DNA from: Paracoccus liaowanqingii | GTDB lineage: Bacteria > Pseudomonadota > Alphaproteobacteria > Rhodobacterales > Rhodobacteraceae | DNA length: 64,000 nucleotides | Reading direction: 5' to 3' | Assembly: GCF_004683865.2 (NCBI RefSeq) | Contig: NZ_CP038439.1 | Coordinates: 1,962,501-2,026,500 of the forward strand | Part shown: positions 3,436 to 21,543 of the stretch, one piece after another | Position numbering within the stretch: the first letter of the stretch is position 1 | Layout of the letters: each line of letters begins with the position of its first letter | The notes under the pieces: generated by a model | Told to the model about the DNA's origin: nothing | The model's input: only the letters and a program-made list of their open reading frames with translations | The model's database searches: none | Position numbers and translations under genes: made by a program

Positions 3436-4199
3436 GCGAGGATCCCGTCGTCCGCGTCCGGGGGCTGCGCACCCAGTTCGGCACCCATGTCGTGCATGAG
3501 GGGCTGGATCTGGACCTGAGGCGCGGCGAGATCCTGGGCGTCGTCGGCGGATCGGGCACCGGCAAGTCGGTGCTGCTGCGCGCCATCGTGGGGCTGGAGG
3601 CCGCACAGGCGGGCGAGATCGACGTGCTGGGCCAGCGCATCGGCAGCCTGTCGGGTGCGGACAGGCGGGCGCTGGAACAGCGATGGGGCGTGATGTTTCA
3701 GGACGGCGCGTTGTTCTCGTCCCTGACCGTGCGCGAGAATGTCGAGGTGCCGCTGAACGCCGTTCCCGGCCTGACCGACGCGCAACGGCGGGGACTGGCA
3801 GAGCTGAAGGTCAGCATGGCCGGGCTGCCGTGGAAGGCCAACGAGAATTTCCCCTCGGACCTCTCGGGAGGGATGCGTAAGCGGGCCGGGCTGGCCCGCG
3901 CGCTGGCGCTGGACCCCGAGATCCTGTTTCTGGACGAACCCACCGCCGGGCTGGACCCGATCGGCGCCACCGCATTCGACAGGCTGATCGTCACGCTGCG
4001 CGACGCGCTGAACCTGTCGGTCTTTCTGGTCACGCATGACCTGGACACGCTGCATGCCTGCTGCGACCGCGTGGCCGTCCTGGCCGAACGCAAGGTCCTG
4101 ACGACCGGCACCATGGACGAGATGCTGGGCGTCGATCACCCTTGGGTGCATGAATATTTCCACGGCCCCCGGGCGCGTGCCGCCGTGAAGAAGGACTGA
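3432..4199 (+). CDS. MlaF-type ABC ATPase
   Basis: 255 residues from a GTG that overlaps the preceding stop. Complete nucleotide-binding domain: Walker A G-G-S-G-T-G-K-S near residue 40, Q-loop F-Q-D-G-A-L-F-S-S-L, signature L-S-G-G-M-R-K-R, Walker B I-L-F-L-D-E-P-T-A-G-L-D-P-I-G-A and H-loop V-T-H-D-L. The signature variant G-G-M-R-K-R and the P-I-G-A after the D-loop are typical of MlaF/Ttg2A-type ATPases of MCE transport systems. Together with the upstream MlaE and downstream MlaD it forms the inner-membrane core of a retrograde or anterograde lipid transporter that maintains outer-membrane asymmetry. Confidence 0.93.
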   Translation: MSEDPVVRVRGLRTQFGTHVVHEGLDLDLRRGEILGVVGGSGTGKSVLLRAIVGLEAAQAGEIDVLGQRIGSLSGADRRALEQRWGVMFQDGALFSSLTVRENVEVPLNAVPGLTDAQRRGLAELKVSMAGLPWKANENFPSDLSGGMRKRAGLARALALDPEILFLDEPTAGLDPIGATAFDRLIVTLRDALNLSVFLVTHDLDTLHACCDRVAVLAERKVLTTGTMDEMLGVDHPWVHEYFHGPRARAAVKKD

Positions 4200-4203
4200 C
4201 GCG

Positions 4204-5451
4204 ATGGAAACCAAGGCCAATTACGCCCTGATCGGCGCCTTCACCCTGGCGGGGTTCCTGGGGATCCTGGGCTTCGTTTTGTGGTTCGCGCAGCTGCAGC
4301 TGGACCGGCAGTTCGCCTATTACGACGTCTATTTCCCCGAGGTCTCGGGGCTTGGCCCCTCGTCCGAGGTGCGCTTTGCCGGTCTGGCGGTGGGCCGGGT
4401 CGTCGACATGCAGCTGGCGCCGGACAATCCGCTGCCGGTCCGGGTCCGGCTGGAGGTGACACTGGACACGCCCATCCGTGCCGACAGCACGGCCGCGCTG
4501 GAGGTGCAGGGCGTCACCGGCGTGGCGCTGGTCGCGGTCAGCGCCGGATCGTCCCGCACGCCCCTGCTGCGCGATGCGGACACGTCCGAGGTGCCGGTCA
4601 TCGCCTCCAGCCGCTCGGCGCTGCAGACGCTGACCGACGAGGGACCGCAGATCATCGAGCGCCTCGGTCTGGTGGCCGAGCAGCTGACCCTGATCCTTGG
4701 AGAGGAAAATCAGGCCCGTGTGACGGCAATCCTCGACAATGTCGAACGGTCCAGCGGCAATCTGGATCAGGCGCTGGACGATGTGGCGACGGCGACCCAA
4801 GCCATCTCGACCGCCGCCACGGGCATCGCGGCCTTCGGCGGGCAGATGGACGGGCTCAGCCGCAGCGCGGGCACCACGCTGGACCGCTTTGCCGACGCCG
4901 CCACCCGGGCCGAGACGACGCTGGCCGCCGCGACCGCCACGCTGGAGGGGGTGGACGGCTATGTCTCGGGCGACCTGACGACCCTGACCCAGCAGCTGGA
5001 ACGCAGCGCCGCCGGGCTGACCACGCTGACCGAGCGCGCCGATGCCAGCCTGGACGGGCTGGACACCGCGCTGGCCTCGGGGACACGGGCCTTCGACGCA
5101 GCCGAGACGGTCGTCACCCGCGACCTCGCCCCGGTGGCCGGTGATCTGCGCGCCACGCTGGCCGCGCTGAACGGCGCGCTGGCCCGCCTGCCCGACGACC
5201 TGCCGCAGATCAGCGCCAGCCTGCGCCAGGCGGCGGACGCGGCGTCGGCGGCCTTCACCTCGCTGCGCGGGGTGGTCGAGGGCGCGGGCGGGCCGGTCCA
5301 ATCCTTCGCGGGCGAGACGCTGCCCCAGATCGGCCGTCTCAGTCAGGACATGCGCGCGCTGGTCGAGAACATGAGCCAGCTTGTCTCGACCCTACGCCGC
5401 GACCCCACGCAGCTTCTGTCCGGCCCCCGGACCCCCGAATTCCGCAGATGA
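4204..5451 (+). CDS. MlaD/MCE-domain lipid transport protein
   Basis: 415 residues. Starts M-E-T-K-A-N-Y-A-L-I-G-A-F with one N-terminal membrane anchor (residues about 8-30), as in MlaD. The MCE domain follows at about residues 38-125 (Y-F-P-E-V-S-G-L-G-P-S-S-E-V-R-F-A-G-L-A-V-G-R-V; then V-Q-G-V-T-G-V-A-L-V). The long C-terminal part (about 150-400) is Ala/Thr/Leu-rich, low in aromatic residues and helical, longer than the short tail of E. coli MlaD. It is more like the PqiB/LetB or Mycobacterium Mce style of helical extension. It starts 4 bases after mlaF and its TGA overlaps an ATG of the next frame. It would bridge the permease and the periplasm. Confidence 0.9.
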   Translation: METKANYALIGAFTLAGFLGILGFVLWFAQLQLDRQFAYYDVYFPEVSGLGPSSEVRFAGLAVGRVVDMQLAPDNPLPVRVRLEVTLDTPIRADSTAALEVQGVTGVALVAVSAGSSRTPLLRDADTSEVPVIASSRSALQTLTDEGPQIIERLGLVAEQLTLILGEENQARVTAILDNVERSSGNLDQALDDVATATQAISTAATGIAAFGGQMDGLSRSAGTTLDRFADAATRAETTLAAATATLEGVDGYVSGDLTTLTQQLERSAAGLTTLTERADASLDGLDTALASGTRAFDAAETVVTRDLAPVAGDLRATLAALNGALARLPDDLPQISASLRQAADAASAAFTSLRGVVEGAGGPVQSFAGETLPQIGRLSQDMRALVENMSQLVSTLRRDPTQLLSGPRTPEFRR

Positions 5452-5459
5452 GGTTACCC

Positions 5460-6074
5460 ATGCGCCTGCCCCTGATCCTGCTGATCGCGACCCTGCCGGG
5501 CTGCGGCGCGCTCTCCGCCCTGCAGGGAGAGCCCGACCGCGACCTGTTCGAGCTGCGCCCGCCCCCGGCTTTTACCTGCAGCCGCTCGCGGGTGGGGGAA
5601 CTGGTGGTCGAGCCGCCCAAGGCCCGCGCCACGCTGGACAGCAACCGCATCATGATCCGCCCCTCGGCGCTGCAGACGCAATACCTGCCGGATGCCGAAT
5701 GGGGCGACACCGTGCCCGCGATGCTGCAGCGCCTGCTGGTGCAAAGCCTGGGCGCGACGGGCGCCTACGGCCATGTGGGCCGCGCGCCCCTGGGTCTGTC
5801 GGGCGACGTGGCGCTGATCAGCGAGATCGGCGACTTCAACGCCGAGCTGGCCCCCGAGGGCGCCCTGGTGCGCCTCACTGTCGAGGCGCAGATGGTCAGC
5901 GAGATGGACGCCCAGGTCGTCTCTCGCGCCAGCTTCTCGGCTGCGGTCCCTGCCGCCGGCACCCGCACCGCCGATCTGATCCCGGCCTTCGACACGGCCT
6001 CGCAGCAGCTGGTCGCGCAGATGACGGAATGGGCAGTCCGCGCCTCGGGCGTCGGTCCCGGCGGCTGCAGCTGA
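5460..6074 (+). CDS. ABC-type transport auxiliary lipoprotein (MCE operon)
   Basis: 204 residues from the ATG at 5460, which has GAGGT five bases upstream. An in-frame ATG at 5448 overlaps the mlaD stop but has no such site. The N-terminus is a lipoprotein signal with lipobox L-P-G-C (Cys at residue 14). The rest matches the ABC_trans_aux (PqiC-like) lipoproteins that accompany MCE operons: a conserved V-E-P-P...L-D-S-N-R-I-M-I-R strand, then Q-Y-L-P-D-A-E-W-G-D-T-V-P-A-M-L-Q-R-L-L-V-Q-S-L. It is probably anchored in the outer membrane, contacting the MlaD tail. It is the last gene of the four-gene operon; 74 bases separate it from the acetate kinase fusion. Confidence 0.85.
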   Translation: MRLPLILLIATLPGCGALSALQGEPDRDLFELRPPPAFTCSRSRVGELVVEPPKARATLDSNRIMIRPSALQTQYLPDAEWGDTVPAMLQRLLVQSLGATGAYGHVGRAPLGLSGDVALISEIGDFNAELAPEGALVRLTVEAQMVSEMDAQVVSRASFSAAVPAAGTRTADLIPAFDTASQQLVAQMTEWAVRASGVGPGGCS

Positions 6075-6148
6075 CGGGCGTCACGCAAAATTAACGAACC
6101 GCCGCTAAAGCCGACGATGCCCCTGTTACCGCAAAGGATTTCCTGCCC

Positions 6149-7933
6149 ATGCGCGTTCTCGTCTTCAATGCAGGCAGTTCCAGCCTGAAGTTCGGCCTGT
6201 TCGACGGCGACCGGCAGGTCTTCAAGGGCAGCTTCGACCGCTTCCGCGAGGGGGGCTGCGATGTGGCCTTCGAGGGCGCGGACGGTCCGCCCGAACAGGG
6301 CCGGGCGCCGCATGCCGATCTGGCGGCGGCCATCGCGGCGGTGCCGGGCGTTCTGGCCGAACGCGGCCTGGCGGGGATCGACGCGGTGGGCCACCGGCTG
6401 GCGCATGGCGGGACCGAATTCACCGGCCCGGCGAAGATCGACGAGGCCGTCATCGCCCGGATCGAGGCGCTGACGCCGCTGGCGCCGCTGCACAACCCCG
6501 CCATGCTGGAGGGGCTGCGCCTGGCCTCGCACATTTGGCCCGATGTGCCGCAGGTCGCGGTCTTCGACACCAGCTTTCATTTGACCAACCCGGCCCGCGC
6601 CACCACCTATGCCGTGCCCGCCGCCTGGCGCGACGCCGGGCTGCGCCGCTTCGGCTTTCACGGCACCTCGCACAAATACGTGGCGCAGCGGGCAGCCGAG
6701 GCGCTTGGCCAGCCGTTGTCCGACCTGCGGATCATCAGCGTGCATCTGGGCAACGGCGCCAGCGCCTGCGCGGTGCAATACGGGGCCAGCATCGACAGCT
6801 CGATGGGCATGACGCCCTTGGAGGGGCTGGTGATGGGCACCCGCTCGGGCGACATCGACCCCGGGGCCTTCGGATTCCTGCAGCGCCATCTGGGGCTGGA
6901 CGTGGCGGCCATCGAAGCCGCCCTTTATTCCGACAGCGGGCTGAAGGGGCTGACCGGCAGCCCGGACATGCGCGATGTCGAGGATCGCGCCGCCGCGGGC
7001 GATGCGGCGGCGCAGCTGGCGATCAACCTCTATGCCTATCGGGTGCGCAAGTATCTGGGCGGCTATGCGGCGGCGATGGGCGGCGTGGATGCGGTCGTCT
7101 TCACGGGGGGCATCGGGCAGAACTCGGCCTCGATGCGGCGGCGGATCTGCGACGGGCTGTCCTTCATGGGGCTGATGCTGGACGATGACCGCAACCGCGC
7201 GCCCGACCTGTCCGACCGCGCCGCGCCGCAGATCCAGGCGCAGGGCAGCCGCGTGGCCGTGGTGGTGACCGAGACGGCCGAGCAGCTGATGATCGCGCAC
7301 GAGGTCCGTACGCTGCTGGACCGTCCCGCCCTGACCCCGCGCCCGGTCCCGGTCGCCGTGTCGGGTCGCCACGTGCATCTGTCGGCCGAGACGGTGCGCG
7401 CGCTGTTCGGCGCCGATTATCGCCTGACCGAGGGCGCGCCCCTGCGCCAGCCCGGCAACTGGGTCGCCGAGGAGCGTGTGACGCTGGAAGGCCCCAAGGG
7501 CCGGCTGGAGCGCGTGGCGATCCTGGGTCCGCTGCGCCCGCGCACCCAGATCGAGGTGTCGCGCACCGACAGCTTCGCCTTGGGCATCGACGCCCCCGTC
7601 CGCAACAGCGGCCAGCTGGAGGGGACGCCAAAGGTCCGCCTGATCGGCCCGCAGGGCGCGTTCGAGACGGACGGCCTGATCGTCGCGGCCCGCCATGTCC
7701 ACACCAACCCCACCGACGCGGCGGCGATGGGCCTGTCGGATGGCGAGATGGTCGAGATCGAGGTGCAAGGCGCGGACGGCCGGGGCCTGGTCTTTGCCCA
7801 TACGCTGGTGCGCGTCGCCGCCGGCACGGTGACCGAGATGCATATCGACACCGACGAGGCCAATGCCGCCGGCATCTCGGGCCATGTCGACGGCGCCGTG
7901 GTGCCGCATGTGCAGGCACTGCCGAAGGGCTGA
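6149..7933 (+). CDS. Acetate kinase fused to PduL-type phosphate acyltransferase
   Basis: 594 residues, far longer than the roughly 400 of acetate kinases. Residues 1-390 are a complete AckA/propionate kinase: N-A-G-S-S-S-L-K-F, H-R-L-A-H-G-G, F-D-T-S-F-H, G-F-H-G-T-S-H-K-Y, H-L-G-N-G-A-S, S-M-G-M-T-P-L-E-G-L and F-T-G-G-I-G-Q-N-S. From about residue 398 the same frame continues as PduL: S-G-R-H-V-H-L-S with metal-ligand histidines 408 and 410, a second R-H-V-H-T at 516-518, and a final G-H-V-D-G-A-V-V. PduL makes acyl-phosphate from acyl-CoA; AckA then makes ATP and acetate (or propionate). The fusion would join both steps of overflow metabolism, or acetate activation in reverse. No classical Pta is in the window. 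There is no stop or frameshift at the joint. Confidence 0.93.
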   Translation: MRVLVFNAGSSSLKFGLFDGDRQVFKGSFDRFREGGCDVAFEGADGPPEQGRAPHADLAAAIAAVPGVLAERGLAGIDAVGHRLAHGGTEFTGPAKIDEAVIARIEALTPLAPLHNPAMLEGLRLASHIWPDVPQVAVFDTSFHLTNPARATTYAVPAAWRDAGLRRFGFHGTSHKYVAQRAAEALGQPLSDLRIISVHLGNGASACAVQYGASIDSSMGMTPLEGLVMGTRSGDIDPGAFGFLQRHLGLDVAAIEAALYSDSGLKGLTGSPDMRDVEDRAAAGDAAAQLAINLYAYRVRKYLGGYAAAMGGVDAVVFTGGIGQNSASMRRRICDGLSFMGLMLDDDRNRAPDLSDRAAPQIQAQGSRVAVVVTETAEQLMIAHEVRTLLDRPALTPRPVPVAVSGRHVHLSAETVRALFGADYRLTEGAPLRQPGNWVAEERVTLEGPKGRLERVAILGPLRPRTQIEVSRTDSFALGIDAPVRNSGQLEGTPKVRLIGPQGAFETDGLIVAARHVHTNPTDAAAMGLSDGEMVEIEVQGADGRGLVFAHTLVRVAAGTVTEMHIDTDEANAAGISGHVDGAVVPHVQALPKG

Positions 7934-8140
7934 CGGGGAGGTTGGGGGGGGCGTGTCCGGCGCCCTTGGTGGTCGCCTCGGCGCGGCCCTGTCGGCCTGA
8001 CCCGCGCGTTGCCCGGCAATCATGTCGGGCAGCGAGGCGGGGGCGGATCGTCGGAGCGCCAGCGTCAGGCGCCCGATGCGGGTGCCGACACCATCAAGGC
8101 CTTGCGATGGCGGGGCTTGGGGCGACCGCGACGTCCTGCG

Positions 8141-8605
8141 TCAGGAACGCCCCTCGGACGCCCGGTCCTTTCGCACACGCGCAGTCGTGACGGGACAGGG
8201 CTGGCCGTCGAAGAAGACCTGCAGGATCCGTTCGAAGACCTCCCCGCCCCCCGCCCCCGCGAACAGCGTCGCGGAGGAGCGCAGCTTGGCGGCGTCGATC
8301 GACCCGAAGATGCCTTCGGCAGAGCTGTCCTCATGCGCCAGCACGGCGCCGGCGCAGGCCCGCAGGCGCGGGCCCAGGACCGGATGAGCCAGATAGCGCC
8401 GCGCCTCGTCCAGATCCGCGATGCCGTAATGCCGCGCCATGGAGGATTGCCCCAGCCCGCGCAGCTGCGGGAAGATGAACCACATCCAGTGGCTCTGCTT
8501 GCGGCCCCGGGTCAGCTCGGCCAGCGCGATGTCATGGCCGTCCTTCTGCGCGGCCACGAAGCGGTCCAGTGCGGCGGGGTCGTCGGTCTGGGACTGGCGG
8601 GGCAT
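8141..8605 (-). CDS. DUF1810 family protein
   Basis: 154 residues. Clear family marks: D-R-F-V-A-A-Q, G-R-K-Q-S-H-W-M-W-F-I-F-P-Q-L-R-G-L-G, then H-Y-G-I-A-D-L-D-E-A and L-G-P-R-L-R-A-C. This small, soluble, probably cytosolic family has no firmly established function that I know; the conserved SHWMWFxFPQ block suggests a binding site. It stands alone: the upstream neighbour is the convergent AckA-PduL gene, with about 200 empty bases between them, and the downstream region holds the broken MFS gene. The start ATG has AGAAGGAG about 10 bases upstream on the minus strand. Confidence 0.88.
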   Translation of the reverse strand: MPRQSQTDDPAALDRFVAAQKDGHDIALAELTRGRKQSHWMWFIFPQLRGLGQSSMARHYGIADLDEARRYLAHPVLGPRLRACAGAVLAHEDSSAEGIFGSIDAAKLRSSATLFAGAGGGEVFERILQVFFDGQPCPVTTARVRKDRASEGRS

Positions 8606-10894: not shown

Positions 10895-12391
10895 TCAATG
10901 CGACATCAGCTTGTCGAGCGCGCCGGGCTTGTCGTGGATGGCCAGCCTGTCGACCAGCGTCTCGGACGCTTCGTTCATGCCGATCAGCTCGACCTCGGCC
11001 CCGTCGCGGCGGAACTTGAGGATCGCCATGTCCAGCGCCTGCACGGAACTGATGTCCCAGATATGCGCGCCGGTGACATCGATGACGACTTTCTCGACCG
11101 CCTCCTTGAAGTCGAAGGCCTCGGCGAAATCCTCGGCTGAGCCATAGAACAGCTGCCCCTCGACCCGATAGGTGCGGGTGCGCCCGTCCTGGGACAGACT
11201 GGAGCGGATGCGGAACAGCTGCGCGATCTTGGCGGCGAAGAAGATCCCCGACAGCATTACGCCGACCAGCACGCCGATGGCCAGGTTGTGGGTGTAGACC
11301 ACCGTCACCACCGTCGCGATCATCACCACCGAGGAGGACCGGGGATGGGTCCTCAGGTTGCCGATCGAGGACCAGCTGAACGTGCCGATCGACACCATGA
11401 TCATGATCGCGACCAGCGCCGGCATCGGGATCCGCGCGACAAGATCGCCCAGGCCCACGACCAGGATCAGCAGCACGACGCCTGCGGTGAAGCAGGACAG
11501 CCGCCCGCGCCCGCCGGATTTGACGTTGATGATCGACTGCCCGATCATCGCGCAGCCCGCCATGCCGCCGATGAAGCCGGTGGCGGTGTTGGCGATGCCT
11601 TGGCCGATGCATTCCTGGTTGCGGTCGGACTTGGTGTCGGTCAGGTCGTCAACGATGTTCTGCGTCATCAGGCTTTCCAGCAGCCCTACGATGGCCACGG
11701 CGATCGAATAGGGCAGGATGATCTGCAGCGTGGTCAGGTTCAGCGGGATGTCCGGGATCAGGAAGACCGGCAGCGTGTCGGGCAGCGCGCCCATGTCGCC
11801 CACCGTGCGCACGTCCCAGCCCATCAGCGTGACCAGCAGCGTCAGCACGACGATGGTAACAAGCGGCGAGGGGATCGCCGTCGTCAGGCGCGGCACCAGG
11901 TAGATGATCGCCAGCCCCGCGGCCACCAGCGCATAGGTGAGCCAGGTGACGCCGGGCACCGACAGGTCCAGCTCGGTCAGCTGCGCCATGAAGATCAGGA
12001 TTGCCAGCGCGTTTACGAAGCCGGTCATCACCGATTTCGAGACATAGCGCATGAAGCGCCCCAGCTTCAGCAGCCCTGCGCCGATCTGGATCAGGCCCGC
12101 CAGCACGGTGGCGGCCAGCAGATACTCCAGCCCGTGCTCGCGCACCAGCGTGATCATCAGCACGGCAGTGGCCGCGGTCGCGGCCGAGATCATCCCGGGC
12201 CGGCCGCCCACGAAGGCGATCAGCACGGCGATGGAGAAGCTGGCGTAAAGCCCCACGCGGGGGTCGACGCCGGCGATGATGGAAAAGGCGATGGCCTCGG
12301 GGATCAGGGCCAGGGCCACGACAAGTCCCGCCAGCAGGTCGCCGCGGATGTTGCCGAACCATTGGTTGCGGTATTCGGAAAGTGAGATCAT
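10895..12391 (-). CDS. SulP-family anion transporter with C-terminal STAS domain
   Basis: 498 residues. N-terminal membrane domain of ten or more spans (about 15-390) with SulP marks: [25 protein letters not shown], and [17 protein letters not shown] cytosolic STAS domain follows (about 400-498; [15 protein letters not shown]). The substrate may be sulfate, bicarbonate or a dicarboxylate; the sequence does not decide. It lies 13 bases upstream of the Usp gene. A possible 55-residue ORF ends 3 bases before its start and could be translationally coupled to it. Confidence 0.93.
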
Positions 12392-12721: not shown

Positions 12722-13993
12722 TCAGATCAGGAAGATGTCGTCGGCGATGTCCTCGGCGGTCAGGCCGCGCCCGTCGAGGGCGATCCGGTCGCCGCCGCCG
12801 AAAAGCAGCACCACGCCCGACGACGTCTCGCGGATGACATCGCCATAGAACTCCGCGACCGAGCGGGACATCAGCGCATCGTCGATGAGCAGGCGGTCGA
12901 TGCCCGGCTGATAGTCGGCGATCCGGTCGGCGCCGTCCCCCTCGTGGAAGACGAAGGTGTCGCGCCCGCTGCCGCCGACCAGCAGGTCGTTGCCGCGCGC
13001 GCCGATCAGGGTGTCGTTGCCCGCCCCCCCGCGCAGGGTGTCCGAGCCGGGACCACCGTGGAGATAGTCGAAGCCCGCGCCGCCATCCATCCGGTCATTC
13101 CCGGGGCCGCCCAGCAGGGTGTCGTGCCCCGCCCCGCCGGTCAGCGTATCGTTGCCGGCGCCGCCGCGCAGCAGGTCGTGGCCGTTGCCGCCGACAAGGC
13201 GGTCGTCGCCGCGCTGCCCGTCCAGCGTGTCGTTGCCATTGCCGCCCACCAGAAGATCGGCGCCCAGGCCGCCGATCAGCCGGTCATGGCCCGCGCCGCC
13301 GTACAGCGTGTCGTGGCCCGCACCGCCGGCCATCCAGTCGTCCCCGGCGCCGCCCCGGGCCAGGTCGGAGGTCGCGCCGAGGCGGAAATCATCCGCACCT
13401 GCCGTCCCCTCGACCGCACGCCCTCCGGGCGAGGACTGCCGCACGGCGCCGTCGAAGACCTCGTCCAGCCAGTCCCCCCGGCTGTCGACATCCGCGACCA
13501 GCGCGGGCTCGGCGGTCACCGGGAACAGCCCCGTGTCCAGCGCGGGCTGGCCCGTGGTGCGGCCGAAATTCTGCGTGGCCATCAGGACCGTGTGGCCCTG
13601 GAAATTCCCGACCTCCAGCCCGATGCCGATATATTCCATCCGGGGCGAGACGATGTTCTCGTAATGGCTGGGGCTGTCCATCAGGTTGCGGTGCAGCTGC
13701 CTGACCTCGTCGCGCAGATCGCCGCCGCCGCTGATCCCGACATAGGCCAGGTTCTCGGCCGTGCCCCAGCTTTGCCCGTACATGGGAAAGCCCGCCTGCT
13801 CGATCCGCGCGGAGGCGGAGGATCCCCTGGCGCCCGAATGCGAGAAGACGTCAGCATCCAGCATCCAGCGGCTGTGGGCATCGGCGGATTCGTTCAGCGA
13901 CCGTGCGATCCGCAAGGGAGCCAGACCCAGATCGGCGCGGGTCTGGTTGACCAGGCTGACAAAATAGCGCTCGTCCGCGGTGGCAAGGCTCAT
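12722..13993 (-). CDS. CAP-domain protein with RTX calcium-binding repeats
   Basis: 423 residues from the ATG at 13993, which has GAGGGG 8 bases upstream. The frame extends upstream to 14143 but that part looks non-coding. Residues about 8-150 form a CAP/SCP domain (L-V-N-Q-T-R; H-S-R-W-M-L-D; F-S-H-S-G; W-G-T-A-E-N-L-A-Y; M-D-S-P-S-H-Y-E-N-I-V), the bacterial type also called YkwD. Residues about 225-365 hold roughly fourteen glycine/aspartate nonapeptides of the form G-G-x-G-x-D-x-L-x. No signal peptide is present, and an aspartate/isoleucine-rich C-terminus is typical of type I secretion substrates. It is probably exported and folded by calcium outside the cell. No dedicated type I ATPase lies next to it. 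The RND genes upstream are a different export class. Confidence 0.85.
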   Translation of the reverse strand: MSLATADERYFVSLVNQTRADLGLAPLRIARSLNESADAHSRWMLDADVFSHSGARGSSASARIEQAGFPMYGQSWGTAENLAYVGISGGGDLRDEVRQLHRNLMDSPSHYENIVSPRMEYIGIGLEVGNFQGHTVLMATQNFGRTTGQPALDTGLFPVTAEPALVADVDSRGDWLDEVFDGAVRQSSPGGRAVEGTAGADDFRLGATSDLARGGAGDDWMAGGAGHDTLYGGAGHDRLIGGLGADLLVGGNGNDTLDGQRGDDRLVGGNGHDLLRGGAGNDTLTGGAGHDTLLGGPGNDRMDGGAGFDYLHGGPGSDTLRGGAGNDTLIGARGNDLLVGGSGRDTFVFHEGDGADRIADYQPGIDRLLIDDALMSRSVAEFYGDVIRETSSGVVLLFGGGDRIALDGRGLTAEDIADDIFLI

Positions 13994-14057
13994 CCGGGTG
14001 TCCCCTCTGAAAGACCGACGTGACACCGCGACGCGCGACTCATGCTCTGGTTGTTCT

Positions 14058-14067
14058 AGTCTAGACT
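14058..14067. promoter_or_regulatory. 10-base perfect palindrome upstream of the RTX gene
   Basis: AGTCTAGACT, self-complementary, about 65 bases upstream of the RTX start, in an AT-richer stretch. It could be an operator or part of the promoter; no regulator can be named. Confidence 0.3.
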
Positions 14068-14192
14068 TATGCTCGTGCACGGCAACGAGGTTTGGCCCGA
14101 CCGTGGCCCGACTTACAGCGCATTCGACCGAATTTCCAGACACGGCTGCGGGAGCGGCGTCCGGATCCGGGATGGGCGGTCAGGGCCAGCCG

Positions 14193-17100
14193 TCAGGCCG
14201 TCCCCTCCCCGGCCAGCGCCTTGTCGACCGCCTCGCTGGCCTGGCCCTTGCGCGAGGTCAGGGGTGCCAGCAGCGTATAGAGCAGCGGGATCACCACGAC
14301 GATCAGCACGCTGGAAAAGGCGAGCCCGCCCAGGATCACCAGCCCGATGGCGACCCGGCTTTCCGCGCCCGCGCCGGTGGCCAGCACCAAGGGCACGGCG
14401 CCCAGCAGGGTCGAGGCCACGGTCATCATGATCGCGCGCAGACGCGAGGTGGCGCCCTCGATCGCCGCCTCGCGGACATCCTTGCCCTCGTCGCGCAGCT
14501 GGTTGGCGAACTCGACGATCAGGATGCCGTTCTTGGCCATCAGGCCGATCAGCAGCACCATCCCGACCTGGCTGTAGATGTTGAGCGATTGCCCCGTCAG
14601 GAACAGAGTTCCGAGCGCGCCCGTGACCCCGAGGGGGATGGGCAGGATGATGATCAGCGGATGGACAAAGCTTTCGAATTGCGCCGCCAGCACCAGGAAG
14701 ACGATCAGGACCGCCAGCCCGAAGGCAAAGATCAGCGCGCCGGACGAATCCTGCAGTTCTCGGGCCTGGCCGTCCAGGGTCATGGTCGCCTCGACCGGCA
14801 GCTCCTCGGCGGCGGCCTCCTCGACGAAGGCGATGGCGCTGCCCAGATCGTAGCCGTCGGCCAGACCGGCCGACAGCTCGACCGAGGGAAGGCGGTCGAA
14901 GCGGTAGAGGGCGGGCGGCCCGGCATCGTCCTCGATCGTCACCAGCCCGGCCAAGGGGACCAGCTGGCCCGAATCCGTGCGGATGAAGCTGGCTTGGATG
15001 TCCTGCGGCGAGACGCGGTCGGCATCCTCGGCCTGCACGATCACCGGATACTGGCGGCCATCCTCGGTGAACTCGCTGACCTCGGCCGAGGCGAACAGCA
15101 CCTGCAGCGCCTCGGACACGTCCGCCGCATCCAGGCCCAGGTCGCGGACCCGGTCGCGATCCACCGTCACGCGATAGCCGGGCTGGTTCGGCTCGTAGGC
15201 GTTCTGGACGTTCACCAGTTGGTCGTTGCCCTCCATTGCCCGCTGCATCAGGGTGGCCCATTCGATCACCTCGGCGCGGTTCGGGCCGCCCACTTGGATC
15301 TGCAGCGGGCTGCCCGCGCCGCGCAGGCCCAGGCCCGCCGGGCTGTCCACGCGGATGTCCGCGGCGCTGATCTGCTGCAGCCGGGGTTCGATGCGGTCGA
15401 TCACCTCGAACTGCGATTCGTCCCGGTCGCCCCATTCCGCCAGCCGGACGATCACGAAGGCGCGGTTCAGATCGCCGTAGCGGCCCACGATGGAGGTGAT
15501 GCCGGTGGCGCTGCCGTCCTCGATCAGGGGCTGCAGGATCGTCTCGACTTCGGTCACGACCGCATCGGTATAGCTGAGGTTCACGCCGATGGGTCCGTCG
15601 ACATTGATGAAGAAGATGCCGCGGTCCTCCTCAGGCGTCAGCTCCGACGGCAGCCGGTCGAAGAGCGGCCATGACAGCGCGCCCAGAAAGGCCACCACGC
15701 CCAGCACCAGCCACGGCAGCGCCAGCACCATCCCCAGCAGCTTGCGGAACCCCGTCTCGACGGCGGCAAAGACGCGGTCCACGAGGCGCCCGAACCAGCC
15801 CGGCGTCTGGTCCTTGCGCAGAAGCCGCGAGGCCAGCAGCGGCGCCAGCGACAGGGCGACGAAGCTGGACACGATCACCGCGACGGCCAGGGTGATGCCG
15901 AATTCGGTGAACAGGCGCCCCGCCTCGCCCTCCAGCAGCGAGATGGGGACGAAGACCGAAACGAGGACGGCGGTGGTCGCGATGACCGCGAAGGTCACCT
16001 GACGCGATCCGTTGGCGGCGGCGGCCAGGGGGTCCTCGCCATTTTCCACCCGGCGCTGGACGTTCTCCAGCACGACGATGGCGTCGTCGACGACCAGACC
16101 GATGGCCAGGATCAGCGCGAAGAGCGTCAGGATGTTGATCGAGAAGCCGAACAGCGCCAGCCCCGCGCAGGCGCCCACGACGGCGACCGGGATCGTCACC
16201 GCCGGGACCAGCGTCGCGCGCAGCGAGCCCAGAAACAGTGCGATCACCGCGACGACCAGGGCGGTGGTGATGCCCAAGGTGACCAGCACCTCGCGGATCG
16301 AGGCGCGGATGAAGACGGCGTCGTCGCTGGCGACGGTCAGCTGGGTCCCCGGCGGCAGGCTGGCGCGCAGGTCGGGCAGCAATGCCTCGACCGCGGCCGA
16401 AATCTCGACCGTGTTCGATTGCGACTGGCGCAGGACCGACAGGCCCACCGCCGACTGGAAATCGGCGCGCAGGATCGAGCTGTCATCCTCGACGCCCCGT
16501 TCCACCCGCGCGACCTCGCCCAAGGTCACCGGGAAATCCGCCGTCCCGCCGACCGAGATGCTTTCGAATTCCGCCGGTTCGGACAGCCGCGTGTCGGTGC
16601 GGATTTGGAACTGGCGCGAGGTCGTCTCCAGCGCCCCGGCGGGCAGTTCGATGTTGTTGCGCTCCAGCGCCTCGATAACCTCGGAGGTGGTGACGTTGCG
16701 GGCCGCCAAGGCGCGGCGGTCCAGCCAGATGCGCATGGCATAGGCCTGCTCGCCCTCGATGGTGACATCGGCCACGCCGTTGATCGTGGCGATCCGGTCG
16801 ACCAGATAGCGGTCCGCGAAATCCGTCAGGTCCGAGGCCGACTGCCGTTCGCTGGTCAGGCTGAGGCGGATCACCGGGTCGCCCTGATCGTCGCTTTTCG
16901 CCACGGTCGGATCCTCGGCCTGCAGCGGCAGGTCGCCCGAGATCCGGGCCACTTCGGCCCGCACGTCATTGGCGGCGACGTCGATGTCGACGCCGGTCTC
17001 GAACTCGATCACCGTCCGGCTGTTGCCGCGCGCGCTGTCCGACGAGATGGTGCGGATGCCCGAGATGCCCGACACCGCGCCCTCGATCACCGTGGCGATC

Positions 17101-17285
17101 TCGGCATCGACCACCTCGGGGGCGGCGCCTTCATAGGGCACGTTGATGGTGACATTCGCGGTGTCCACGTCGGGCAGTTCGCGCACCGGCAGCGACAGGA
17201 CCGCCGCGGTGCCGCCGACCAGGATCAGCAGGTTGGCGACGATGGCCAGGACGGGGCGGCGCAGGCACAGTTCCGACAGGGTCAT
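14193..17285 (-). CDS. RND-family multidrug efflux permease (AcrB-like)
   Basis: 1030 residues, normal for HAE-1 RND pumps. N-terminus M-T-L-S-E-L-C-L-R-R-P-V-L-A-I-V-A-N, the first membrane span, then a large periplasmic porter domain, spans 2-7 near the middle, a second periplasmic loop and spans 8-12 at the end. Motifs include L-A-I-G-L-V-V-D-D-A-I-V-V-L-E-N in span 4, with the charged residues of the proton relay, and G-L-M-A-K-N-G-I-L-I-V-E-F-A-N in span 10. It exports small amphiphilic compounds by proton antiport. The GTG/ATG-type overlap with the adaptor (17282-17285) shows a two-gene operon. No outer-membrane channel is encoded beside it, so it likely uses a TolC from elsewhere. The substrate is unknown. 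Confidence 0.94.
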   Translation of the reverse strand: MTLSELCLRRPVLAIVANLLILVGGTAAVLSLPVRELPDVDTANVTINVPYEGAAPEVVDAEIATVIEGAVSGISGIRTISSDSARGNSRTVIEFETGVDIDVAANDVRAEVARISGDLPLQAEDPTVAKSDDQGDPVIRLSLTSERQSASDLTDFADRYLVDRIATINGVADVTIEGEQAYAMRIWLDRRALAARNVTTSEVIEALERNNIELPAGALETTSRQFQIRTDTRLSEPAEFESISVGGTADFPVTLGEVARVERGVEDDSSILRADFQSAVGLSVLRQSQSNTVEISAAVEALLPDLRASLPPGTQLTVASDDAVFIRASIREVLVTLGITTALVVAVIALFLGSLRATLVPAVTIPVAVVGACAGLALFGFSINILTLFALILAIGLVVDDAIVVLENVQRRVENGEDPLAAAANGSRQVTFAVIATTAVLVSVFVPISLLEGEAGRLFTEFGITLAVAVIVSSFVALSLAPLLASRLLRKDQTPGWFGRLVDRVFAAVETGFRKLLGMVLALPWLVLGVVAFLGALSWPLFDRLPSELTPEEDRGIFFINVDGPIGVNLSYTDAVVTEVETILQPLIEDGSATGITSIVGRYGDLNRAFVIVRLAEWGDRDESQFEVIDRIEPRLQQISAADIRVDSPAGLGLRGAGSPLQIQVGGPNRAEVIEWATLMQRAMEGNDQLVNVQNAYEPNQPGYRVTVDRDRVRDLGLDAADVSEALQVLFASAEVSEFTEDGRQYPVIVQAEDADRVSPQDIQASFIRTDSGQLVPLAGLVTIEDDAGPPALYRFDRLPSVELSAGLADGYDLGSAIAFVEEAAAEELPVEATMTLDGQARELQDSSGALIFAFGLAVLIVFLVLAAQFESFVHPLIIILPIPLGVTGALGTLFLTGQSLNIYSQVGMVLLIGLMAKNGILIVEFANQLRDEGKDVREAAIEGATSRLRAIMMTVASTLLGAVPLVLATGAGAESRVAIGLVILGGLAFSSVLIVVVIPLLYTLLAPLTSRKGQASEAVDKALAGEGTA

Positions 17286-18654: not shown

Positions 18655-21543
18655 ATGCGAACGACCGAACACGACCTTTCAGTGAGCATTTCCGACATGT
18701 CCAGATCCGTCGAGACGACCGCCACCGACGACCCGATGGCGCCTGCGGAGCTGGTGCCTGCGGAGCTGGTCCGCGCCTGTCACGCCCACCATGACCGCCT
18801 CGCGCTCTGCGACCGGGATCACCGGCTGAGCTATGGCCAGCTGGCGGAGTTCGTCCAGGTGCTGCAGGGCCAGCTGTCCGGCGACGGTCCCGTGGCGCTG
18901 TTCGGCGCCCCCGGCAGCCTGCTGGCGGCGGCGGCGGTGACCTGCGTCATCGGCGGGCGGCCCTTCGTGCATCTGGATCCCGCCATGCCGCAGGCGGTGC
19001 TGACCAACATCGTCGCCGAGCTTGGGGTCGCGACCATCGTGACCTGCCAGCCCCCCGCGCCGGATCAGCTGCCAAGGGCCTGCCGCATCATCGACGCGCA
19101 GACCTGCCTCGACCGGCGCCCGCCCGACGGCGTGGGACCGCTGGCGGCGGCGGATGTGCGCCCGACCGACATCATCTATCTGGTCGCCACCTCGGGCACG
19201 ACCGGGCGGCCCAAATGCATCCCCGTCACCCATGACGCCGCCTGGCTGTCCTATCGATGGCGCGACGGCTTCACCCCCTATGATCCGTCCATGACGGTGG
19301 GCATCTACATCTTCGCCATCTGGGAGATGTTCCGGCCGCTGCGGATGGGCGCCCAGCTGCAGTTTCCCGGCCTGAACGACCTGATGTCGCCGCAGGCGCT
19401 GGTCGCGTTCCTGTCGCGCCACGGCATCGACGAGATGCTGTTCACCCCGTCCTTCTTCGAGAAGACCCTCGGCGGCATCGACCCGGAGATCGGGGCCGCG
19501 CTGCCCCTGCGCCGCGTGGTGCTGAACGGAGAGGTCGTCAGCGACCGGCTGGTGGCCGAGGCGAAAAGGAGGCTGCCCGGCACCGCGCTGTGGAACCTCT
19601 ACAGCATCTGCGAGACCCATGACATCAGCATCACCCGGCTGGACGGCGTCCCCGCCCCGGCCGAGGGGGTCTCGGTGGGCGTGGCGATGCCGCATCTGCA
19701 GGCCGTGGTTCTGGACGACGGGGACCGGCCCTGCGCGCCGGGCCAGCCGGGCCTGCTGCATTTCGAGGGGCCGCGCATGCTGGGCCCGGGCTATGTGAAC
19801 CGCCCCGAGGAGACCGAACAACGCTTCCGGATGCTGACCTTGGACGGGGCGGACCGGCGACTGTATGACACCGGCGACCGGGGCTATGTCACCGAGGACG
19901 GCCGAATCCATGTGCTGGGGCGCATCGCGCATATGCTGAAGCTGCGCGGCCACAGCATCCAGACGCGCGAACTGACCGAGACGCTGGCCGCGCATCTGGC
20001 CTTTGGGCAGTCGATCCCCTGGGTGCAGCAGGTCGAGGGCCCGGGACAGGTGCTGGTGGTCTATTACACCGCCGACGCCGCGCAGAGGGCGCGCAATGCC
20101 GATGCCTGGACCCTGGGCACGGACTGGCAGCGGATGCCGCAGGCGCTGGCCCTGGCCCTGCAGCAGGTCCTGCCGCGCTATTGCATCCCGACCTGGCTGG
20201 CCCGGCTGGACGAGATTCCGATCAACCCGGTCTCGGGCAAGTGCGACTTCAAGGCGCTGCCGCCTGTGCCATCCGAGGACGGGGGCGCGGACGGCGCGCA
20301 TGACCTCCCCACCCTGACCTGCGCCGCGCGGATCCTGGGCGGTGCCGCCCGCAGCATCGACCCCGCCCGGTCCTTCCACGATCAGGGCGGCGACTCGCTG
20401 ATGTGCGTCGACCTGATCCTGTCGCTGGAGGCGGCCTATGGGCGCCCGGTGGATTTCGAATGGGCGCTGAACCTGCCGCTGGCGCGGCTGCATGCGCTGC
20501 TGACGACCGAGGCCGCGGCCTCCACCCCGCCGGCCAGCGTCCGGAAGGCCGGGATCCTGCTGACCGGCGCCACGGGCTTTCTGGGCGGACATGTTCTGGC
20601 CGAGGCCGCCCGCCATCTGCCAGAGGGTCAGGTGATCTACTGCCTGGTGCGCCCCCGCACCCATGATCCGGCAGTCCGTCTGGCCGACCGGGCCGCCGCG
20701 CTCGGCGTGCCGCAGGATCGCTTCGTTATCGTGGCGGGCGCGATCGAGGATCCGCGCTTCGGGCTGGATCCCGCGACCTACGCCGATCTGGCCCATCGTG
20801 TCTCCTCGGTCGTCCATTGCGCCGCGACCGTCAACCTGGCGGTCGACCGCGACCGGATGGAGGCCTGGTCGCAGGCGGGGATCGCGACGATCCTGCAGTT
20901 CTGCCGCGACGCGGGCGCGCCGCTGGCCTTTTCCAGCTCGACCTCGATCTTTCCCGACCGCGGCGGGCCCCATCCCGAAGGCCCCGCGACGGCCTTCGAG
21001 GGGATCTCGGGCTATGGCGCGGCCAAGATCGCGGCGGAGCGGGCCATCGCGCACGCGGGGATCGACGCCCTGATCCTGCGCCTGCCGTCGCTTTATGATC
21101 TGGAGGCGCCGAATCCGAAGGACATCTACGAGACGATCCTGCAGGCCTGCCAGCGGTCGGGACGGGTGCCGCAAGGCCTGTGCTTCCGGATGACGGATGT
21201 GCGGGCGGCGGCGCGGCTTCTGCTGCAATCCGTCCCCGAGGGCGTGACCCATGCCAACCTGATCGGCGACGCGGCCGTCACCTGGCCGCAGGACGCGCCG
21301 TCCCTGCCCACGATCCCGCGGGCCGCCTGGCTGGACATGGCCCCCCTGACCCCGGTCGAGCGACGGCTGCTGCAGGACGCCCCCGGCACGCTGCAGGCGG
21401 ATGCCGCCTATGACACGGCCACGGCGCAGCGCCTCTGGTCCGCGCTCGGGCCCTATGGGCAGGTCTCGGACCCGGCGGCGCTGCTGGCGCGGCGCCTTCA
21501 GCCCGAATTGGTGCCGGAGGCTACCACAGCGATCCCGCGTTGA
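18655..21543 (+). CDS. Stand-alone adenylation-carrier-thioester reductase (NRPS-like A-T-R)
   Basis: About 962 residues from the ATG at 18655; other starts at 18682 (GTG) and 18697 (ATG) are possible and none has a strong ribosome site. Domain order: adenylation (about 45-530) with A3 A-T-S-G-T-T-G-R-P-K, A5 N-L-Y-S-I-C-E-T-H-D, A7 Y-D-T-G-D-R-G-Y, A8 G-R-I-A-H-M-L-K-L-R-G-H and A10 N-P-V-S-G-K-C-D; carrier with D-Q-G-G-D-S-L, Ser581 as the phosphopantetheine site; SDR-type reductase (from about 632) with G-A-T-G-F-L-G-G and catalytic Tyr787 and Lys791 (Y-G-A-A-K). It should activate a carboxylic or amino acid, load it and release it reductively as aldehyde or alcohol, as in carboxylic acid reductases or Lys2. 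No condensation domain and no phosphopantetheinyl transferase are nearby. Its end overlaps the convergent SDR by 23 bases. Confidence 0.88.
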   Translation: MRTTEHDLSVSISDMSRSVETTATDDPMAPAELVPAELVRACHAHHDRLALCDRDHRLSYGQLAEFVQVLQGQLSGDGPVALFGAPGSLLAAAAVTCVIGGRPFVHLDPAMPQAVLTNIVAELGVATIVTCQPPAPDQLPRACRIIDAQTCLDRRPPDGVGPLAAADVRPTDIIYLVATSGTTGRPKCIPVTHDAAWLSYRWRDGFTPYDPSMTVGIYIFAIWEMFRPLRMGAQLQFPGLNDLMSPQALVAFLSRHGIDEMLFTPSFFEKTLGGIDPEIGAALPLRRVVLNGEVVSDRLVAEAKRRLPGTALWNLYSICETHDISITRLDGVPAPAEGVSVGVAMPHLQAVVLDDGDRPCAPGQPGLLHFEGPRMLGPGYVNRPEETEQRFRMLTLDGADRRLYDTGDRGYVTEDGRIHVLGRIAHMLKLRGHSIQTRELTETLAAHLAFGQSIPWVQQVEGPGQVLVVYYTADAAQRARNADAWTLGTDWQRMPQALALALQQVLPRYCIPTWLARLDEIPINPVSGKCDFKALPPVPSEDGGADGAHDLPTLTCAARILGGAARSIDPARSFHDQGGDSLMCVDLILSLEAAYGRPVDFEWALNLPLARLHALLTTEAAASTPPASVRKAGILLTGATGFLGGHVLAEAARHLPEGQVIYCLVRPRTHDPAVRLADRAAALGVPQDRFVIVAGAIEDPRFGLDPATYADLAHRVSSVVHCAATVNLAVDRDRMEAWSQAGIATILQFCRDAGAPLAFSSSTSIFPDRGGPHPEGPATAFEGISGYGAAKIAAERAIAHAGIDALILRLPSLYDLEAPNPKDIYETILQACQRSGRVPQGLCFRMTDVRAAARLLLQSVPEGVTHANLIGDAAVTWPQDAPSLPTIPRAAWLDMAPLTPVERRLLQDAPGTLQADAAYDTATAQRLWSALGPYGQVSDPAALLARRLQPELVPEATTAIPR
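18741..18770 (+). repeat. Perfect 15-base tandem duplication inside the A-T-R N-terminus
   Basis: GCCTGCGGAGCTGGT occurs twice without a gap, encoding P-A-E-L-V twice. It is in frame and lies before the adenylation domain, so copy changes would be tolerated. Confidence 0.85.

Follow-up and report, generated by a model that had tools for sequence, protein, structure and literature searches.

The window analysed here, a stretch of 64,000 nucleotides from contig NZ_CP038439.1 of Paracoccus liaowanqingii, carries at positions 6149-7933 of the forward strand a single ATG-to-stop reading frame of 594 codons with no inner stops. The frame encodes an acetate kinase (AckA) joined to a PduL-type phosphotransacylase, and its features are the following (window coordinates, strand, description):

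6149..7933, forward: ackA-pduL fusion gene, 594 aa, defined by the open reading frame, Pfam and NCBIfam, with the architecture repeated in other genomes
6155..7297, forward: acetate kinase domain, residues 3-383 (Pfam PF00871)
7118..7120, forward: Q324, at the GIGENS position that is usually Glu (MtAckA E334), from the alignment
7316..7342, forward: interdomain linker, about residues 390-398, from the linker length in the fused loci and from pLDDT
7349..7876, forward: PduL (PTAC) domain, residues 401-576 (Pfam PF06130)
7367..7378, forward: first RHVH motif with the Zn1 ligands H408 and H410, mapped to rPduL His48 and His50
7436..7438, forward: A430, mapped to rPduL Lys70, a named CoA contact
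7517..7519, forward: A457, mapped to rPduL Arg97, a named CoA contact
7691..7702, forward: second RHVH motif with the Zn2 ligands H516 and H518, mapped to rPduL His157 and His159
7841..7843, forward: H565, third Zn2 ligand, mapped to rPduL His204

Acetate_kinase PF00871 (Pfam) covered residues 3-383 of the fusion protein (model positions 2-391 of 392, 415.7 bits, cut-off 22, E 1.9e-124) and TIGR00016 ackA (NCBIfam) scored 399.8 bits against a cut-off of 293.4, while PTAC/PduL PF06130 (Pfam) covered residues 401-576 (model positions 1-175 of 176, 221.8 bits against 25, E 6.8e-66) and NF011652 phosphate propanoyltransferase (NCBIfam) scored 227 bits against 209. The preliminary description had read the locus as complete AckA and PduL domains in one open frame and had proposed a domain search; these scores, all above the curated cut-offs, and the nearly end-to-end coverage confirm both identities. 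The AckA half was also matched by propionate kinase models of NCBIfam. In a search of solved structures, the kinase half retrieved acetate and propionate kinases, the best being acetate kinase 2iir, and the C-terminal half retrieved R. palustris PduL (5cuo). The AlphaFold model of the fusion (mean pLDDT 87.5, pTM 0.82) matched both folds, AckA (M. thermophila 1g99) and PduL (5cuo), with block means of pLDDT of 94, 86, and 89 across residues 381-410, the linker region; the weakest stretch, residues 220-234, includes the conserved loop with R232. PduL begins about 10 residues past AckA, and no N-terminal encapsulation peptide was found on it. The possibility that the C-terminal part is something other than PduL was rejected by the PF06130 score and by the 5cuo match in both the structure search and the model comparison, and an assembly or frameshift artefact was rejected by the recurrence of the fusion in other genomes (see below).

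Upstream of the fusion lies an Mla-type transport set, with 74 bases between the end of its lipoprotein gene and the fusion's start codon, and downstream, on the opposite strand, lie DUF1810, MFS, Usp, and SulP genes, with Usp and SulP at 2-4.5 kb from the fusion. A promoter scan of 5900-8200 found none, and two terminator-like sites were present in the same region (0.5, sd 0.6, in shuffles), at 6904-6922 (forward, inside the gene) and 6098-6118 (reverse); no weight is placed on these sites. An antisense open frame of 752 aa (5765-8023, reverse) runs opposite the fusion gene; long antisense open frames are common in high-GC DNA. Elsewhere in the window, the reverse strand encodes a CAP-domain protein with RTX calcium-binding repeats, perhaps secreted (12722-14143), and an AcrB-type RND pump (14193-17285).

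Mapping on the M. thermophila enzyme (MtAckA, 1g99) placed N7, S10, S12, R83, H115, D140, H171, N202, R232, and E378 of the fusion at MtAckA N7, S10, S12, R91, H123, D148, H180, N211, R241, and E384, respectively. We take N7, S10, S12, H123, D148, H180, and N211 to be catalytic. The equivalents of R91, R241, and Glu384 have been probed by mutation in other AckAs (PMC6461089). Among the fused AckA rows of our alignment, MtAckA R91, D148, H180, R241, and E384 were conserved in 73 of 73, and N7, S10, and S12 in 64 of 73, the remaining nine being gaps. The Glu position of GIGENS was Gln in three of the 73 fused rows (the window, L046, and L087) and Glu in the other 70, as it was in all 12 stand-alone AckA rows.

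For the PduL half, the roles of residues in zinc, phosphate, and CoA contacts were taken from the account of the solved R. palustris PduL (rPduL) in PMC4784909. All six zinc ligands are present (H408, H410, E469, H516, H518, and H565, at rPduL His48, His50, Glu109, His157, His159, and His204), and the two H-V-H metal motifs that had been noticed earlier were recovered as R-H-V-H, spanning residues 407-410 and 515-518. The window protein also retains the phosphate contacts Arg103 and Ser127, and the rPduL metal ligands together with Arg103, Gln107, and Ser127 are conserved in all 78 fused PduL rows. Of the six conserved CoA contacts named by Erbilgin et al. (Ser45, Lys70, Arg97, Leu99, His204, and Asn211; PMC4784909), four are conserved in the window protein, and Lys70 and Arg97 are replaced by Ala. 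Position 97 is Ala in 37 of the 78 fused rows, all assigned, by the record's title or the position in the tree, to Rhodobacterales or Rhizobiales except L070 and L088, and Arg in 11 of 11 stand-alone PduL rows. At position 70 a basic residue was found in 53 of the 78 fused rows but in only 5 of the 11 stand-alone ones (non-basic in 6), and its loss alone is therefore of little weight. Ala at both positions was found in the window, L012, L013, L014, the plasmid L098 (these four from Paracoccus), and the Rhizobium MAG L020, and two further Paracoccus rows had Thr at 70 with Ala at 97 (L016) and Arg at 70 (L018). In addition, the position of rPduL Gln77, which the same paper links to acyl preference (PMC4784909), is Asn in the window. 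Given the Gln at the GIGENS Glu and the Ala at two CoA-contact positions, one of the two activities could be weak or altered.

The survey of fusions in Rhodobacteraceae that the preliminary description called for found the AckA-PduL fusion in 6 of 295 genomes, the window's included. PF06130 was present in seven of these genomes, the seventh holding a stand-alone copy (L010), and AckA in 198; G023, the one further member of the window's genus sampled, had neither PF06130 nor PF00871. In the class sample, PF06130 matched in 2 of 337 genomes and exceeded the cut-off in the window's only. When named genomes were scanned with the PduL alignment, 73 of the best 80 of 569 relatives were fused, a share that is skewed by the similarity ranking and is not a frequency, and the seven stand-alone PduLs among these 80 were all Bacillota records. 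Within the best 80, fused loci fell in Alpha- and Gammaproteobacteria, Bacteroidota, and Myxococcota; the named carriers included Paracoccus, Pararhodobacter, Gemmobacter, Roseibaca, Mesorhizobium, Pseudohongiella, Lewinella, Neolewinella, and Sandaracinus, together with many MAGs. The linker, by one measure throughout, was 10-15 residues long in all 73 fused loci, in six of which the AckA part was clipped by a contig end (L033, L036, L044, L045, L076, and L088). One genome, G664 (L049), has long AckA frames on two contigs, C98 and C85 (620 and 621 aa), perhaps two fusions. With so many fused relatives among the best 80, and with the type noted in print in PMC4784909, the rarity of the fusion implied by the preliminary description was not borne out.

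Plasmid records matched the fusion protein in 406 cases, four of which covered at least 80% of it at one site. Intact plasmid fusions were those of Paracoccus sp. Arc7-R13 and Polaromonas naphthalenivorans. The other two, S. meliloti RU11 and S. medicae ml49, had a broken PduL part. The plasmid of Acidovorax sp. T1 (L114) had AckA only, without PduL, and G030 (L010) had PduL without an AckA partner; since copies such as these four had lost one half, the halves are not always needed together. On the two Sinorhizobium plasmids, L099 (about position 11575) and L101 (about 7575), the PduL part was split in two and the AckA part was intact, and a P-type ATPase gene adjoined the fusion on L099. The Ensifer adhaerens plasmid L110 carried a fusion remnant at 4001-4495, consisting of a short AckA tail and a partial PduL, with the remaining PduL in a different frame. 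Both intact plasmid copies, when their annotation was opened, were named 'acetate/propionate family kinase', that is, by the kinase half alone, and genomes with the fusion may therefore appear to be without phosphotransacetylase.

Trees of both domains were quick trees without bootstrap, for which domain hits below 30 bits were ignored, AckA rows shorter than 320 model positions were dropped except L106, L107, L114, and L116, and PduL rows shorter than 160 were dropped. In the AckA tree (73 fused and 12 stand-alone rows; L099 and L101 were scored as fused despite their broken PduL part), the fused/stand-alone label required three changes, and 10 of the 12 stand-alone rows lay outside the fused part. 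The two inside were L114, the Acidovorax plasmid AckA without PduL, and L109, whose stand-alone label is an artefact of an excised stretch that ended before the C-terminal part of a 621 aa frame. The fork that sets the two fused AckA groups apart from L115 and L116 was unsupported (<80), and the placement of the long rows L106, L102, and L114-L116 is unsure. In the PduL tree (78 fused and 11 stand-alone rows), the label required two changes, the odd row L010 adjoined the Gemmobacter fusions (98*), and the fused group with L010 had an SH-aLRT of 85. L010 (G030, 1468-2067) is best read as a former fusion minus its AckA half; the frame upstream of it is presumably CoxG-like, judged by eye. Tree distances of the AckA and PduL halves were correlated over 71 shared rows (r 0.77; highest of 999 permutations 0.15) and within the Rhodobacterales-Rhizobiales part (r 0.61 over 38 rows; highest of 999 permutations 0.26). 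The simplest reading of these trees would be a single ancient fusion followed by losses of one half or the other, which is not proof, because the L115/L116 fork is unsupported and the SH-aLRT of the fused PduL group is 85.

The window genome has a single PF00871 hit and a single PF06130 hit, both of which are the fusion gene. It also has two PTA_PTB hits, both in proteins with malic enzyme domains, and a PTA_PTB protein lacking such domains was not found in this genome. BMC shell protein PF00936 had no match in the whole window genome; the earlier remark that no shell genes are near thus holds genome-wide as far as this family is concerned, and a microcompartment link was rejected on this ground. 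In a set of 54 genomes (53 fusion genomes and G030), PF00936 was found in one, G632, on a contig other than that of the fusion. Phosphoketolase (XFP_N) had no match in the window genome and sulfoacetaldehyde acetyltransferase (Xsc, TIGR03457) had five, none above cut-off, and both were rejected as sources of acetyl phosphate there; among the relatives, each was above cut-off in 7 of 54 genomes.

PTA_PTB was present in 45 of the 54 genomes with 79 hits, 66 of which lay in frames of at least 750 aa, the size of the malic enzymes of the window genome, in whose two PTA_PTB proteins alone the malic enzyme domains were examined. The other 13 hits lay in frames below 700 aa (G630, G633 twice, G644, G647, G653, G656, G657 twice, G660 twice, G664, and G666); only G633 had a full-length hit in a short frame (357 aa), those of G630 and G644 were partial, and all three adjoined xsc. 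Extra stand-alone AckA was found in G633, G646, G650, G652, and G669, pieces of it in G651, G656, and G659, and a second long frame in G664. In most of the 54 genomes the fusion apparently takes the place of an absent dedicated Pta; many of these genomes are drafts or MAGs, so that the absences are soft. In the Rhodobacteraceae sample, PTA_PTB was matched at E <1e-90 in at least 48 of 295 genomes (47 times in a frame of up to 516 aa, once in one of 702 aa); among the matches listed, none of these hits was in the six fusion genomes, which are too few to show exclusion.

Gene neighbourhoods of the fusion in other genomes were predicted by a codon-score script, and the domain scan covered 46 of 135 immediate neighbours. 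These 46, on the same strand and within 200 bp, included seven P-type cation ATPases and two phosphoketolases. The gene order on the Polaromonas plasmid is fabI-fusion-DUF3141, and on the Paracoccus plasmid a phasin gene lies two genes upstream of the fusion. These neighbourhoods hint at a link to stress or storage metabolism, and the window copy is without such signs. In L012 (971-6138), a tight row runs from a 254-aa gene (SDR/FabI-like) through a P-type cation ATPase to the fusion, with the fusion's start overlapping the stop of the ATPase gene, and similar gene rows were observed in L014 and L016. On the Paracoccus plasmid L098, eutB (ethanolamine ammonia-lyase) starts at 21190, 9.4 kb after the fusion.

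From the families to which the two halves belong, we predict that the fusion is very probably a shell-free two-headed enzyme that makes up the Pta-Ack pathway of this bacterium. The PduL half, as a di-zinc phosphotransacylase, would catalyse acetyl-CoA + Pi <-> acetyl phosphate + CoA, the AckA half would catalyse acetyl phosphate + ADP <-> acetate + ATP, and the net reaction would be acetyl-CoA + ADP + Pi <-> acetate + ATP + CoA. Since this net reaction is reversible, the fusion could serve to gain ATP from surplus acetyl-CoA or to activate acetate. One point against a Pta-Ack pathway confined to this one protein is that both malic enzymes carry Pta-like domains, which in principle might have Pta activity; such domains usually lack it.

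The main acyl group of the window protein might instead be propionyl or another short acyl, as in the propanediol-type PduL/PduW pairs, with ATP recovery from propionyl-CoA or propionate uptake. The matches of the kinase half to propionate kinase models and structures, the Asn at the acyl-preference position, the eutB gene of plasmid L098, and the description of PduL as characterised with propionyl-CoA as its native substrate (PMC4784909) fit this reading. Against it, among solved structures an acetate kinase matches the kinase half best, AckA relatives usually accept both acetate and propionate, and no PF00936 shell protein was found in the window genome; we regard propionyl as an unlikely main substrate. 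Somewhat more plausible, although still doubtful, is that in many hosts the fusion mainly serves as an outlet for a set of stress or storage genes (phosphoketolase, a FabI-like reductase, a P-type cation ATPase, phasin, and DUF3141) dealing with acetyl phosphate or polyester carbon, and that the window copy retains this role despite its different neighbours. The ATPases and phosphoketolases among the scanned neighbours, the Polaromonas gene order, the Paracoccus phasin gene, and Usp and SulP downstream in the window point in this direction; however, XFP_N has no match in the window genome and reaches the cut-off in only 7 of the 54 genomes, and the window fusion's own neighbours are the Mla-type transport set and DUF1810.

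The substitutions Q324 in the kinase and A430 and A457 in PduL, and the broken or half-lost copies in other hosts, might also indicate decay or inactivity of one half in this strain, leaving a gene that works as a single enzyme. We consider this improbable, given that the metal ligands and mapped catalytic residues are all present in both halves, that the frame is intact, and that the AckA half shares 84% identity with a Paracoccus copy. Most Paracoccus-like fusions are without both basic residues (Lys70 and Arg97) in the PduL half, from which one could conceive of a composite site, in which the AckA half or a partner chain helps to hold CoA and acetyl phosphate is passed on, or of an acyl carrier other than CoA, such as an acyl-carrier protein. 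In either case the fusion would be more than two enzymes on one string, and to this we give very little credence.

As a shell-free two-headed enzyme, the fusion would condense a central energy pathway into one natural protein, in which the phosphotransacylase is of a type best known from microcompartments and here found free of a shell. If both halves are active, it would offer a test case for the channelling of acetyl phosphate, a reactive acetyl donor, by fusion, as well as a compact building block for metabolic engineering. The fusion itself is genuine, but both its architecture and the proposal of channelling have been published before: a section of Erbilgin et al. 2016 (PMC4784909) states that PF06130 regions occur in multidomain proteins mostly annotated as Acks, which are without encapsulation peptides, are proposed to replace Pta, and perhaps aid channelling by their fusion. 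Among the papers listed in our literature searches, only that one was seen to mention the fusion, and an assay of an AckA-PduL fusion was not found among them. What is added here is modest, namely the spread of the fusion, its constant linker, the shared history of its halves, its status as sole pathway in the window genome, and the changed CoA-contact residues.

The AckA-PduL proteins of Erbilgin et al. 2016 resemble the window protein in having AckA and PF06130 in one protein without an encapsulation peptide, a likeness to the window clade that is by description, as the section gives neither sequences nor the order of the parts (PMC4784909). The usual Pta is unrelated to PduL, as stated in the same paper (PMC4784909). 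Compared with stand-alone AckA (PF00871, TIGR00016; M. thermophila 1g99), the window protein has the same fold, mapped catalytic residues, and domain length, and differs in its C-terminal PduL and in Gln for Glu in GIGENS. Compared with the microcompartment PduL of R. palustris (5cuo), the fold, the two RHxH motifs, the six zinc ligands, and the phosphate contacts are the same, whereas the window protein is without encapsulation peptide or shell genes, is joined to AckA, and has Ala at Lys70 and Arg97. The usual Pta-AckA pair consists of separate proteins whose net chemistry is expected to equal that of the fusion, and the same net chemistry is expected on a Sphingobium plasmid, where an enoyl-CoA hydratase/phosphate acetyltransferase adjoins AckA as a separate protein. 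ADP-forming acetyl-CoA synthetase catalyses the identical net reaction with an unrelated protein and mechanism, and its likeness to the fusion is in function only.
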